Assembly (NCBI RefSeq): GCF_003258295.1
Contig: NZ_QKYN01000191.1
Span: forward strand, 1-38,003
DNA: 38,003 nucleotides
Direction of reading: 5' to 3'
From: Streptacidiphilus pinicola
Lineage (GTDB): Bacteria > Actinomycetota > Actinomycetes > Streptomycetales > Streptomycetaceae
The notes under the pieces were generated by a model. It saw only the letters and a list, made by a program, of their open reading frames with translations, was not told where the DNA came from and did not search any database. The number at the start of each line of letters is the position of its first letter. The stretch's first letter is position 1. Shown here piece by piece: positions 3,683 through 12,817 of this stretch. A program made the position numbers and the translations under genes.

Positions 3683-4600
3683 TCAGCCCTTCGTCGCGCC
3701 CAGGGTCAGGCCGGCGATGAAGTGGCGCTGCAGGATGAAGAAGAGGATCACCGTGGGCAGCGCGACCAGGACGGAGCCGGCCGCGAGCAGGTTGTAGTCC
3801 TGGAAGTACTGTCCCTTCAGGTTGTTGAGCGCGCTGGTGACCGGCATCTTGTCGCCGGAGGACATCAGCACCAGCGCCCACAGGAAGTCGTTGTAGATCC
3901 AGGCGAACTCCAGCGTGGCCAGCGCCGCCAGCGCCGGGCGGCACAGCGGCATCGTGATCCGCCAGAACTGCGTCCACACGCCCGCGCCGTCGACGATCGC
4001 GGCCTCGCGCAGCTCCTCGGGGAGCGCCTTCATGAAGTTGGTCATCACGAAGACGCAGAAGCCCGTCTGGAAGGCGATGTGGATGGCGATGACGCCCCAG
4101 TAGGAGTCGTACATCGTGAGCGAGTCCGACATCCAGTAGGGCAGCGGGATCCGGGTGAAGAGCTCGTACACCGGGGTCACCATGACCTGCGGCGGCAGCA
4201 GGTTGCCGGCCGTGAAGAGGATCAGGATGAGGAACCCGCCCCGGATCCGGACCCGGGCGATGCAGAAGGCCACGAAGGAGGCGAAGAACAGCGTCAGCAG
4301 CACCGCCGGGACGGCGATGAGCAGGGTGTTGAGGAAGTGCTGCGCCATCCCCGACTGCGTGAAGGCCTCGCGGTAGTAGGCGAAGCTGAGGTGGTGCGGC
4401 CAGGAGAAGTACCCGTACTTGGACGTCTCCTGGTAGGGGCGCAGCGAGGCGTAGACCGCCAGCAGCAGCGGCGCCAGCCACAGCAGCGAGACGGCGGCCA
4501 GGAAGACGTGCAGGCCCAGTCGGCGTGGGGCGACGGCCGGGCTCGCGGAGGGTTTGGCGCCGGTGGCCTTCGGCGCCGGGCCGGCGGCGATCGCGGTCAC
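3683..4600 (-). CDS. Carbohydrate ABC transporter permease, MalG-type
   Basis: A 305-aa inner-membrane permease with six hydrophobic segments. The first is at about 31-52 and the last near the C-terminus. The cytoplasmic EAA loop (EAA at 199-201, Gly205, then an ITMPLCRPAL segment) docks to the ATPase. The start is GTG at 4600, which overlaps the stop of the preceding permease gene by 4 bp (GTGA), so the two are translationally coupled. The family imports mono- or oligosaccharides with a lipoprotein receptor. No ATPase gene is in the operon; in Streptomyces such importers commonly share the multitask ATPase MsiK, which is the likely partner here (inference). The sugar cannot be predicted. Confidence 0.92.
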   Translation of the reverse strand: MTAIAAGPAPKATGAKPSASPAVAPRRLGLHVFLAAVSLLWLAPLLLAVYASLRPYQETSKYGYFSWPHHLSFAYYREAFTQSGMAQHFLNTLLIAVPAVLLTLFFASFVAFCIARVRIRGGFLILILFTAGNLLPPQVMVTPVYELFTRIPLPYWMSDSLTMYDSYWGVIAIHIAFQTGFCVFVMTNFMKALPEELREAAIVDGAGVWTQFWRITMPLCRPALAALATLEFAWIYNDFLWALVLMSSGDKMPVTSALNNLKGQYFQDYNLLAAGSVLVALPTVILFFILQRHFIAGLTLGATKG

Positions 4601-5592: not shown

Positions 5593-6895
5593 AGATGGCC
5601 GTCTTCTGCCGTTGGATGGAGTTGCACAGCCCGTCGACGTCGCTCGGGTTGTTCAGGAAGGTCTGCAGCGCCTGGATCATCACCGTCGAGACGAAGTCGG
5701 GGCGGCTGTCGCGGTCCATGAACTGCGAGATGCTCTTGGCCGTGGAGACGAGCTTCGCCCCGGACTGCTGCAGCGAGTTGTAACCGCTGGTGTCCACCGA
5801 GGAGTTGACGCCGAGCTCGGAGGAGTCCGCGGACAGGTAGGCGTTCTCGGCCTTCGGCGTCCCCAGGAACGTCAGCAGCTTCTTGGCGCCCGTCTCGTTC
5901 TTGGCCTTGTGCGAGAGCAGGAAGCCGTCGATCGGCGCCTCCACCGCGTCCTGGCCGTTGGTCGGGTCGAGCGCCGGGTAGGCGAAGAAGTCCAGGTCGG
6001 CCTGGTCCGCTCCGGCGAACTGCTGGCCGATGAACATGCCCAGCGTCATCATGCCGGTCTTCTTCTGCTGGAGCGCCTGCGCGGACTCCTGCCAGGTCAG
6101 CCCGAGCGCGCCCTGCTGGTAGTAGGGCAGCAGCTGGCGCCAGGTGTCGAAGACCTGCTTGACCTTGGTGCCGGACCAGTCCTCGTGACCGCCCATCAGC
6201 GACTTGTGGAAGTCGTAGCCGTTCAGGCGCATGTTGATGTAGTCGAACGTCCCCATGGCCGGCCAGCCGTCCTTGTCGGAGAAGGAGATGGGGACGAGGC
6301 CGTCCTTCTGCATCTGCTTCGCCAGGGATATGTACTGGTCCCAGGTGGTGGGGATCTGGTAGCCGTGCTGGGCGAAGACCGACTTCCGGTAGAAGACCGC
6401 CCATGGGTAGTAGTAGTACGGCACGAAGTACTGCTTGCCGTCCAGGCCCGTGGACTGCGCCTTGATGGCGTCGGACATCCCGGAGAAGCCGCTCCAGACG
6501 TCGCTGATGTCGCCCAGCAGTCCCTTCTGCGCGAAGTACTGCATGCGGTAGCCGGCGAACCAGCCGAACACGTCGTCAGGGTTGCCCTGCAGGTAGCGGT
6601 TGATGTTCTGCTGGAACGAGTTGTGGTCGACCGTGTTGGTCTTGACCGTGTAGCCGGAGCTGCTCTGGAAGGCGGCGACGGCGTTGGCGATGCCCTTCTT
6701 CGGCACCGGGTCCGACCAGTTCGAACCGAAGGTGACGGACTTCCCACCGCCTCCTCCCGCGCCGGATCCGCTGCCGCAGGCGGCGAGGACCGAGGGAAGC
6801 GTGACCGCCCCTGCGCCGATCGCGGCAGCGCGCAGGACCGACCTTCTGGTGGGACTGTTACTGGTGATGCGGTCGTGCGATCCGGGCGTTGCCAT
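5576..6895 (-). CDS. Sugar ABC transporter substrate-binding lipoprotein (Tat signal)
   Basis: A 439-aa extracellular receptor for the adjacent permeases. The start is ATG 6895 because GGGAGGGG precedes it at normal spacing; a longer frame reaching 6976 would include the operator region and lacks such a site. The N-terminus has a twin-arginine motif, TRRSVLR (16-22). A hydrophobic stretch and lipobox LAAC follow, with Cys40 the lipidated residue, and then a Gly/Ser-rich linker. The body is a typical family 1 carbohydrate-binding fold, with many Trp/Tyr residues suited to stacking on sugars (for example VFGWFAGYRMQYF). Expression is likely controlled by the promoter and operator at 6951-6995. 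Confidence 0.92.
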   Translation of the reverse strand: MATPGSHDRITSNSPTRRSVLRAAAIGAGAVTLPSVLAACGSGSGAGGGGGKSVTFGSNWSDPVPKKGIANAVAAFQSSSGYTVKTNTVDHNSFQQNINRYLQGNPDDVFGWFAGYRMQYFAQKGLLGDISDVWSGFSGMSDAIKAQSTGLDGKQYFVPYYYYPWAVFYRKSVFAQHGYQIPTTWDQYISLAKQMQKDGLVPISFSDKDGWPAMGTFDYINMRLNGYDFHKSLMGGHEDWSGTKVKQVFDTWRQLLPYYQQGALGLTWQESAQALQQKKTGMMTLGMFIGQQFAGADQADLDFFAYPALDPTNGQDAVEAPIDGFLLSHKAKNETGAKKLLTFLGTPKAENAYLSADSSELGVNSSVDTSGYNSLQQSGAKLVSTAKSISQFMDRDSRPDFVSTVMIQALQTFLNNPSDVDGLCNSIQRQKTAIYATEG

Positions 6896-10377: not shown

Positions 10378-11136
10378 ATGAGCCGCTTCACCGACCGCGT
10401 CGCCGTCGTCACCGGCGCAGCCCAGGGCATCGGCGCCGCCACCGCGCAGCGTCTGGCCGAGGAGGGCGCGAGCGTCGCCGTCGTCGACCTGACCGCCGAG
10501 CGCGCCCAGGCCACCGTCGACGCGATCACCGCCAAGGGCGGCACCGCCCGCGGCTACGGCTGCGACGTAACCGACTACGACGCCGTCGAGGCCGTCTTCG
10601 CGCAGATCGCCGCGGACTTCGGCACGATCCACATCCTGGTCAACAACGCCGGCATCACCCGCGACAACCTCTTCTTCAAGATGCCGAAGACCGACTGGGA
10701 CGCGGTCATCACGGTCAACCTGACCAGCGTCTACAACTGCTCGCAGGCGGCACAGAAGTACATGTGCCACCAGAAGTACGGCAAGATCGTCTCGCTCTCC
10801 TCCCGCTCCGCCCTCGGCAACCGCGGCCAGGCCAACTACGCCGCCGCGAAGGCGGGCATCCAGGGCTTCACCGCGACCCTCGCGATCGAGCTCGGCCCGT
10901 TCAACATCAACGTCAACGCGGTCGCCCCCGGCTACATCGCCACCCACATGACCGCCGCGACCGCCGAGCGCGTCGGCGCCACCGCCGAGGACCACCAGAC
11001 GGAGGTCGCCGCCCGCACGCCGCTGCGCCGCGTCGGACAACCGGAGGACATCGCGGCCGTCGTCGCGTTCCTCGCCTCCGAGGACGCCTCCTACGTCAGC
11101 GGTCAGACGCTGTACGTGAACGGCGGCGCACGGTGA
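10378..11136 (+). CDS. Short-chain dehydrogenase/reductase, FabG-like 3-oxoacyl reductase / 3-hydroxyacyl-CoA dehydrogenase
   Basis: A 252-aa classical SDR. The cofactor motif is TGAAQGIG at 12-19, NNAG is at 89-92, and the catalytic tetrad is Asn114, Ser141, Tyr154 (in QANYAAAKAG) and Lys158. Asp37 after the second strand (VVDLT) suggests NAD(H) rather than NADP(H). The C-terminal [14 protein letters not shown] is typical of FabG. In this operon it most likely interconverts the 3-hydroxyacyl- and 3-oxoacyl-CoA between the dehydrogenase and thiolase steps, not fatty acid synthesis. ATG 10378 has a GAGGAG site. Its stop overlaps the ligase start (GTGA). Confidence 0.9.
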   Translation: MSRFTDRVAVVTGAAQGIGAATAQRLAEEGASVAVVDLTAERAQATVDAITAKGGTARGYGCDVTDYDAVEAVFAQIAADFGTIHILVNNAGITRDNLFFKMPKTDWDAVITVNLTSVYNCSQAAQKYMCHQKYGKIVSLSSRSALGNRGQANYAAAKAGIQGFTATLAIELGPFNINVNAVAPGYIATHMTAATAERVGATAEDHQTEVAARTPLRRVGQPEDIAAVVAFLASEDASYVSGQTLYVNGGAR

Positions 11137-12674
11137 CCACGCTCTCCCTGGCCTCCGTGCTCGCGGAGAACGCGCGGCGGCGACCGGACAAGCTGGCGCT
11201 GGTCGAGGGCGAGACCCGGCTGAGCTTCGCCGAGCTGTGGCAGCAGGCGCTCACCCAGGCCGCCGCACTGGTCAAGCTGAGCGTCCGGCCCGGTGACAAG
11301 GTCGCCCTGATGGCGCCCAACGTCACCGAGTTCCCCCGCGCCTACTACGCGATCCTCGCGGCCGGCGGTGTGGTCGTGCCGGTGCACCTGCTGCTGACCG
11401 GCGAGGAGGTCGCGTACGTGCTGCGCGACTCCGGCGCGACGCTGCTGCTCGCCCACGCCGCGAACGCGCCGGTCGCGGCGGGCGCGGCGGCCGAGGCCGG
11501 CGTGCCGCTGGTGACGATGGGGCCGGCTGCGGAGGTGCCGGGCGCGCTCGGGCGGCTGGAGGAGTTCGCCGCGCTGGAGCGGCCGCTGACGCACTTCGTC
11601 GCCCGCCAGGCCGAGGACCCGGCGGTCGTCTTCTACACCAGCGGCACCACCGGCCAGCCCAAGGGCGCGGTGCTGTCGCACCTGAACCTGGTGCTGAACG
11701 CGACCGTCAACGCCTTCGACGCCAACCACGTCGAGGCCGACGACGTCGTCCTGGGCTCGCTGCCGCTGTTCCACACTTTCGGACAGACCGTCAGCATGAA
11801 CTCCACCTGGCGCGCGGGCGCGGCGCTGGTGCTGCTGCCGCGCTTCCACGCCGGGCAGGCGATCGAGCTGATGCTGCGGGAGGGCGTGAACACCTTCCAC
11901 GGCGTGCCCACGATGTACATCGCGTTGTTGGAGGCCGCCAAGGGCAGCGACGGCCCGCTGCCGGCGCTGCGCCTGTGCATCTCCGGCGGCGCGTCGCTGC
12001 CGGTCCCGGTGCTGGAGCGCTTCAACGCCGCGTTCGAGGCGGACGTCTTCGAGGGCTACGGCCTGTCGGAGACCTCCCCGACCGCCTCGGTGAACCAGCC
12101 GGACTACGGGACGCGGGCGGGCACGGTCGGTCACCCGGTATGGGGCGTGGACGTCGAGATCGCGCGGGCGGAGGTCGAGGAGAGCATCGAGCTGCTGCCG
12201 GCGGGCGAGGTCGGCGAGGTGGTCGTGCGCGGCCACAACGTCTTCCAGGGCTACCTGAACCGCCCCGAGGCGACCGCACAGGCCCTGGTGGAGGGCTGGT
12301 TCCGCACCGGGGACCTGGGGGTCAAGGACGCGGACGGCTTCGTCTCGATCGTGGACCGCAAGAAGGACGTCGTCATCCGCGGTGGCTTCAACGTCTACCC
12401 CCGCGAGGTCGAGGAGACCCTGCTGCGCCACCCCGCCGTCGCCGAGGCCGCCGTCATCGGCCTGCCGGACGACACGCACGGCGAGGAGGTCTGCGCGGTC
12501 CTGGTCCTGGACGCGTCCCACTCCCCCGCCCCAACGGCGCAGGACATCATCGACTGGTCCAAGGAGCACCTGGCCAAGCACAAGTACCCGCGCCGGGTCG
12601 AGTTCACCGACGCCTACCCGCTGGGCCCGAGCCATAAGGTCCTCAAGCGGGAATTGCGGGCGCGCTACCACTAG
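11133..12674 (+). CDS. Long-chain acyl-CoA synthetase-type AMP-forming ligase
   Basis: A 513-aa ANL-superfamily adenylating enzyme that activates a carboxylic acid to its CoA thioester. The start is GTG 11133 inside the SDR stop (4-bp GTGA overlap), which gives [14 protein letters not shown] and the normal family length. Motifs include the P-loop [11 protein letters not shown] at about 168-178, [18 protein letters not shown], the hinge [20 protein letters not shown], and the A10 region [11 protein letters not shown] with the catalytic lysine. Most relatives have GPTGKILKREL, so Ser-His before the lysine is a variation. It probably supplies the substrate for the upstream dehydrogenase. It is convergent with the permuted tRNA-like element that abuts its stop codon. 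Confidence 0.92.
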
Positions 12675-12776
12675 GACATGAAAGAGAGCGGGTCGCTCTA
12701 CTTTGAGCTACAGCCCCATGATGGTGGAGCTGGGAGGAATCGCACGCTCCATCTACCCGCTCGAATTCCATTGTCC
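12674..12776 (-). ncRNA. Circularly permuted, alanine-type tRNA-like RNA (two-piece candidate)
   Basis: Read on the minus strand. Upstream half: GGACA (12776-12772), TGGAA (12770-12766), GAGCGGGT (12762-12755), AGAT variable loop, T arm (12750-12733) with loop TGCGATT, CAGCTCC (12732-12726) and encoded ACCA (12725-12722). Spacer TCAT. Downstream half: GGGGCTG (12717-12711), TA, D arm GCTC/AAAGTA/GAGC (12708-12695), G, ACCCGCTC (12693-12686), TTTCA (12683-12679), TGTCC (12678-12674). Pairings: a 7-bp acceptor stem with a G3:U70 wobble and A73, a 4-bp D stem, a 5-bp T stem with one bulged C (12746), an 8-bp anticodon stem, plus 5+5 further pairs. Positions expected of tRNAs are kept: U8, A14, A21, purine 26, pyrimidine 48, G53-C61, U54, C56, A58. 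In the linear transcript the acceptor stem closes on the loop ACCAUCAU. There is no anticodon. Alternatives are a decayed tandem tRNA pair or an elaborate terminator; the long cross-half pairing argues against both. Confidence 0.7.
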
Positions 12777-12817
12777 CCCCGGTCCCCGGGCTCCGCATCC
12801 CGAGCCGGATGAGGGGG

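Follow-up and report, generated by a model that had tools for sequence, protein, structure and literature searches.

What kind of gene, if any, lies on the minus strand behind the acyl-CoA synthetase-like gene of the Streptacidiphilus pinicola window (the whole stretch of DNA that was analysed, 38,003 nucleotides)? The initial annotation had read positions 12776 to 12674 as a circularly permuted tRNA-Ala-like RNA that lacks an anticodon, and neither ARAGORN nor Rfam, used at its gathering cut-offs, reported anything within the window. The permuted order held for positions 12762–12686, both when the helices were read off the sequence and in the minimum-energy fold. The fold of 12776–12674 includes all of the helices named below (-45.2 kcal/mol, z -4.15, with 0 of 200 shuffles equal). 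The conserved unit proved to be 77 nt long rather than the 103 nt first proposed. This core (12686..12762, minus strand) adopts a circularly permuted tRNA-like fold of 24 base pairs, supported by the fold z-score and by covariation. The neighbouring plus-strand gene (11124..12674; AMP-binding, PF00501, E 5.8e-90) lies outside the RNA, is convergent with it and ends 11 nt from the core.

Read along the minus strand, the core opens with the 5' strand of an 8-bp closing stem (12755..12762), which replaces the anticodon stem and pairs with 12686–12693; four of its eight pairs covary in 12 aligned rows. The T arm follows (12733..12750), with 5 bp, one bulged base and the loop TGCGATT, and two of its five pairs covary. 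The 3' strand of the acceptor stem (12726..12732, tRNA positions 66–72) includes U70, and all 12 rows keep its seven positions paired, with covariation at one pair. A73 (12725) and the connecting loop CCATCAT occupy 12718..12725, the site at which cleavage would have to occur to create a free 3' end. The 5' acceptor strand (12711..12717, positions 1–7, GGGGCTG) includes G3, and G3.U70 is found in 13 of 13 rows. After U8-A9 comes the D arm (12695..12708, GCTC-AAAGTA-GAGC), whose four pairs are invariant in 12 rows, and G26 then leads into the 3' strand of the closing stem (12686..12693), supported by covariation in the 13-row consensus. An anticodon arm and the standard tRNA order are absent (ARAGORN, none), and the closing stem stands where the anticodon loop belongs.

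A DNA search among 14 genomes of the genus found two close relatives. The covariance model R2 matched 39 of the 394 genomes of the family (E 1e-6 or below); ten of these scored 83.5–101.1 bits and the next best 57.3, a gap that marks a compact class as distinct and rare. A pattern search of genome contigs added four loci (L164, L166, L177 and L208), bringing the class to 14 genomes; as seen here, it occurs in Streptomyces, S. netropsis and S. albireticuli among them, and in Streptacidiphilus. In the wider taxonomic class, R2 matched 13 of 374 genomes at 1e-5, and the best score among those 374, leaving aside S. pinicola and G157, was 51.6 bits.

Thirteen copies, S. pinicola included, were aligned; L164, incomplete at the end of its stretch, was left out. 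In a 12-row alignment fitted to the model, 98.6% of the cells are paired, seven pairs have changed in both partners, and none of 500 shuffles reached the covariation score of 0.230, slid versions scoring far lower. When the 13 rows and their flanks were aligned with MAFFT, RNAalifold recovered the same 24 pairs unaided and none beyond them; pairs 7 and 8 of the closing stem are broken in one and three rows, respectively. Seventeen of the consensus pairs, G3.U70 among them, are invariant. The nearest two relatives show the same helices in single folds, yet these are little better than shuffles (z -0.67 to -1.47), and the structural case therefore rests on covariation. Homologous loci thus exist, and in both alignments their acceptor and closing-stem pairings covary. 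The homologues and the covariation rule out a chance fold. Remnants of two different tRNAs are likewise ruled out at the S. pinicola locus, since the entire unit is conserved. The locus almost certainly encodes a conserved, structured, permuted tRNA-like RNA.

Tandem tRNA-Ala genes can mimic the RNA: the matches in L007, L024, L025 and L268 bridge the junction of two such genes. The permutation may have originated from such a tandem pair. On S. pinicola contig C107 (L025 and L268), two tRNA-Ala(GGC) genes stand in tandem and their junction scores 45.3 bits with R2; a junction of this kind could have been the first source of the permuted gene.

Other details of the first description were trimmed by the comparison. 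Its "8+5+5" pairing of the two ends survives as the 8-bp stem, which belongs to the consensus, while the outer 5+5 bp fall outside the 13-row consensus, and the promoter-like hexamers of ten relatives occupy their site. The 22-nt flanks of S. pinicola pair at -15.6 kcal/mol against -2.0 to -12.3 in the 12 relatives; because the relatives pair more weakly and in other registers, the extended flank pairing looks peculiar to the S. pinicola copy. The T arm is conserved, with a bulged pyrimidine in the T stem of S. pinicola and eight other rows of 12 and none in the remaining three. The encoded ACCA is no feature of the class, being present in three of 13 copies. A73 and C74 are invariant in the 13 rows (three of them pattern-selected), the rest of the loop is variable, and 5–8 nt follow A73.

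Among known systems, two-piece tmRNA (RF04321) shares the permuted gene order, G3.U70, A73 and the need for a cut in the acceptor loop; the compact RNA differs in its 4-bp D stem and 8-bp closing stem. At a relaxed E-value the RF04321 match is limited to model positions 36–95, in the acceptor region, and reaches 27.5 bits against a cut-off of 47. A two-piece tmRNA was rejected on the grounds that the 77-nt unit lies wholly within the fold and holds no tag reading frame, as first stated. Nor is the RNA the genome's own tmRNA, an ordinary one of 162.6 bits having been found separately. Resemblance to tRNA-Ala extends to the acceptor letters, the alanine identity pairs and similar D-arm letters, whereas the halves are swapped, the anticodon is missing and a loop seals the acceptor end. 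The tRNA(Other) of Bacillus cereus, likewise small and tRNA-like and encoded close to a lysyl-tRNA synthetase gene, is not known to be permuted. Jakobid mitochondrial tmRNAs are described as lacking the tag sequence (PMC3985003); by that description they, too, are tRNA-like RNAs without a tag part, and they differ in being mitochondrial and tmRNA-derived. Among the titles and abstracts retrieved from the open-access literature we found no description of the RNA studied here, and an earlier one within the Y RNA papers is possible.

The nearest known relative, which the initial annotation overlooked although it was right on the permuted order, the missing anticodon, the alanine identity pairs and the distinction from tmRNA, is the tRNA-like domain of the bacterial Y RNA YrlA. 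At a relaxed E-value, YrlA (RF02553) was the sole Rfam family to match over its full length, at 22.9 bits against a cut-off of 69. Acceptor, T and D arms follow the same permuted order in its tRNA-like domain (PMC8394870), so the order itself is already known. The same source describes the YrlA basal stem as the part that tethers Rsr. Besides the low score, three differences separate the compact class from YrlA: it has no conserved long 5'/3' stem, the 8-bp stem alone appearing in the 13-row consensus; ten of the compact relatives carry promoter-like hexamers at the closing stem; and, as read from flanks of unequal length, rsr adjoins the RNA in only one of the 14 genomes. In that genome, Streptacidiphilus jiangxiensis, some 76 nt separate the end of the compact core from the stop codon of rsr, and the two are convergent.

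These observations bear on a first alternative, namely that the RNA is a compact Y RNA, an uncut tRNA mimic that works in a Y-RNA-like particle, its partners being Rsr, PNPase or tRNA-modifying enzymes, with no role for alanine charging. The full-length YrlA match and the S. jiangxiensis arrangement speak for it, as do the rsr-linked Y RNAs of the same genus, which hold the same permuted domain (one in ten with G3.U70). TROVE was present in 11 of the 13 compact-class genomes tested (all but G413). The two genomes giving no TROVE match, S. pinicola and G321, count against it, together with the missing long stem and the scarcity of adjoining rsr genes; rsr is in any case widespread, occurring in 173 of 297 family genomes. 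We consider this alternative a real possibility, to which we give roughly one-third of our belief. No intact rsr was found in S. pinicola: on contig C175 (6,975 bases), L100:4609-4818 matches the C-terminal 70 residues of Rsr, and no other part of the gene was found on that contig.

Y-RNA-like genes of the same genus (L072, L073 and L075) stand about 100 nt upstream of rsr and match the YrlA model over its full length; the L072 fold has a long stem, though it is little better than shuffles (z -1.67). The rsr-upstream loci L072–L075 also fall below the RF02553 cut-off, with 38.5–48.7 bits at best, so this model seems to miss these genes. L266 and L267 are likewise Y-RNA-like and upstream of rsr, and were matched by R2 alone. 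In G016, tandem YrlA-like RNAs were observed upstream of rsr (L038:344-448 and 503-599; 48.1 and 30.1 bits). In a separate conserved RNA, permuted tRNA-like modules come in pairs, spaced by about 145 nt (L110–L123 and L125–L130, for example L119:1353-1575, and L063:6757-6979), the second module scoring above the cut in part of the loci. The fold of L119:1255-1665 has a z of -5.18, and both L119 modules are weak YrlA matches. The linker motif of this RNA is also recognisable by eye in other families, at L258, L259, L261 and L262. Between L063 and rsr there are about 2.5 kb; in G155, G114, G087, G117, G126 and G216, rsr is distant or on another contig.

One of the alanine marks, G3.U70, largely sets the compact class apart from other permuted RNAs. 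Bacterial alanine determinants are given as A73, G2-C71, G3.U70, G4-C69 and G20 (PMC9976931). G2-C71, G3.U70, G4-C69 and A73 are invariant in 13 of 13 rows, and in 10 of 10 without L166, L177 and L208, which were chosen by a pattern demanding the acceptor letters and A73/C74. The alanine identity set first proposed (G3.U70 and A73) is thus constant across relatives. G20 is absent: a pyrimidine stands between the G and A21 of the D loop in 13 of 13 rows, and the tRNA-Ala of S. pinicola likewise has T at position 20. In one 52-row alignment, all 9 compact rows have G3.U70, as against none of the 43 other permuted RNAs, many of them related to one another, which all have C-G or G-C there; A73 occurs in 9 of 9 against 20 of 43. 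Among ten rsr-linked permuted RNAs that were read, only L072 has G3.U70, with U73. The pattern demanding these letters also retrieved RNAs near rsr-like genes (L175, L195 and L209).

Within the class, conservation of G3.U70 is weak evidence alone, as it is one of 17 invariant pairs. Furthermore, the acceptor letters GGGGCTG are identical to those of S. pinicola tRNA-Ala(GGC) and the D-arm letters are similar; descent from tRNA-Ala could explain the marks without present charging. We put recognition by alanyl-tRNA synthetase (AlaRS) at an even chance. That the RNA is also cut and charged seems possible but somewhat doubtful; the scarcity of an encoded CCA (three of 13 copies) and the shortness of the loop speak against it.

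The ends of the gene carry putative expression signals in part of the class. The pattern TTGNNN-N16-18-TANNNT is found in every one of the 10 copies from outside the genus, ending 6–7 nt upstream of the closing stem; it was picked after viewing the sequences, with a chance of 0.0005–0.0018 per locus. These promoter-like hexamers would start transcription at the closing stem. None of the three copies within the genus has them, and the corresponding stretch of S. pinicola (12763..12797, minus strand) holds no such -35/-10-like pair. Strong hairpins, matched by at most 2 of 200 shuffles, lie 3' of L003, L106, L107, L108, L109 and L166; the other seven of the 13 copies show no hairpin of that strength. 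S. pinicola is among these seven, 155 of 200 shuffles folding as well as its own.

The activity of the S. pinicola copy is uncertain, since the hexamers, a terminator-like hairpin and a lipid transferase gene on its contig are all lacking. The copy might accordingly be a relic, or silent, with its sequence still intact. That rsr was seen only as a fragment on another contig, and that the convergent gene ends 11 nt away, would fit such a fate. All 24 pairs are intact in S. pinicola, however, its differences from the G012 copy are confined to loops, and the G008 copy shows a compensatory pair change. Absence of hexamers need not mean decay, because the other two copies of the genus lack them too. 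We hold decay or silence to be unlikely.

A possible clue to function comes from the neighbourhood of the relatives, whose RNAs were located by sequence alone, without regard to neighbours. A gene with a PF09924 domain, the mark of lipid aminoacyl-transferases, lies within 8 kb of the RNA in 10 of 14 genomes, against 0.14 expected. Three layouts were observed. In G157, G257, G413, G321 and G329, the RNA directly precedes a PF00756 esterase gene, and the PF09924 domain follows about 2.9 kb on, in an MprF homologue behind the esterase. In G317 and G318, the RNA stands before the same esterase, LysX comes next, and the PF09924 domain is 6.4 and 7.0 kb away. In G147, G076 and G094, the RNA is convergent with LysX, with the PF09924 domain 1.8 kb off and more PF09924 genes beyond. 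No PF09924 gene lies close to the RNA in G012, G008, G178 or S. pinicola, and in S. pinicola the whole contig of the RNA is without one. The association has a p of about 4e-5 when counted as three of seven lineages and of about 0.05 if the three layouts represent one event; they may be one shared ancestral locus.

The esterase layout invites a further alternative, in which the RNA is a cis-acting leader controlling the esterase and mprF genes in the manner of tRNA-like operators. L104, L105, L177, L208 and L247 each place the RNA immediately 5' of the esterase frame and in the same orientation, and any hairpin between the two is no better than shuffles. The six copies with a strong hairpin 3' of the RNA are at odds with a leader, and so are S. 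pinicola and L107–L109, where the RNA faces the end of the neighbouring gene. We regard control in cis as very improbable.

The best explanation, which we hold tentatively and a little short of even confidence, is a compact, free-standing, Y-RNA-like mimic of tRNA-Ala, perhaps serving as an alanine donor for lipids. Such an RNA would be a free-standing permuted tRNA-like domain with tRNA-Ala-like arms and without the long Rsr-binding stem, and would act in trans as a non-decoding mimic. If it is expressed, the mechanism that we favour is that tRNA enzymes would cut the short acceptor loop, CCA would be added to the cut end, and alanyl-tRNA synthetase would then charge the resulting two-piece RNA. 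MprF-type transferases would take the alanine from it for lipids with no competition with translation. In Actinobacteria, LysX and alanyl-diacylglycerol synthase are described as transferring amino acids from aminoacyl-tRNA to lipids (PMC10580965). The complete scheme, a non-decoding, two-piece alanine carrier charged by AlaRS from which MprF-type enzymes alanylate membrane lipids, is conjecture from sequence and gene order, and we judge it rather unlikely as a whole. The 14 genomes carry 4–7 PF09924 genes each and the RNA, at 80 bits or more, is found in 10 of 394 family genomes, from which it follows that MprF proteins can do without it. LysX, the neighbour in five of the genomes, comes with a lysyl-tRNA synthetase part of its own.

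The pattern search of genome contigs gave 86 matches in all. Of these, 71, L211–L216 included, were scored with the covariance model, 14 Sphingomonas loci and L167 (Undibacterium) being left out; ARAGORN saw 14 of the 86, and among the 80 matches listed many are ordinary tRNA-Ala genes by eye. Permuted RNAs with G3.U70 were recovered from Mycobacterium sp. MBM (L191), Nocardia mikamii (L189), two Modestobacter (L159 and L183) and a viral contig (L302), a set chosen by a pattern demanding the acceptor letters and therefore uninformative on the frequency of G3.U70. A hairpin lies 3' of four of these five RNAs (0 of 200 shuffles equal), L183 being without one, and TROVE gave no match in the four bacterial genomes. 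L191 is near a resolvase gene and L159 near a phage integrase gene, which suggests that these two permuted RNAs may sit on mobile elements.

Among plasmids, one of 72,556 records matched, with 53% covered. Among phages, 5 of 50,697 records matched, none with at least 80% covered; four of these matches lie over annotated tRNA-Ala genes and one in an RIIB gene. Thirteen viral contigs contained the pattern: L302 and L303 scored 54.5 and 50.7 bits, with no ARAGORN tRNA in either, and the remaining 11 carry ordinary tRNA genes. On the viral contig L303, a permuted tRNA-like RNA at 4156-4231 is accompanied by an rsr-like frame at 5836-6432. At the S. pinicola locus itself, the AMP-ligase gene was compared with its orthologues in four relatives; the sequence downstream of them is unrelated, and no clean empty site emerged.

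tRNA-dependent lipid modification shares its pool of aminoacyl-tRNA with translation. If an alanine-donating tRNA-Ala mimic is the correct reading, a chargeable RNA that cannot decode would give these bacteria a separate supply line of amino acid. Should the RNA instead be a Y RNA lacking the Rsr-binding stem, then Y RNAs would have a tRNA-like half able to exist independently, even in genomes that lack rsr. Either way, the permuted tRNA fold is in use beyond the families of Y RNA and tmRNA.
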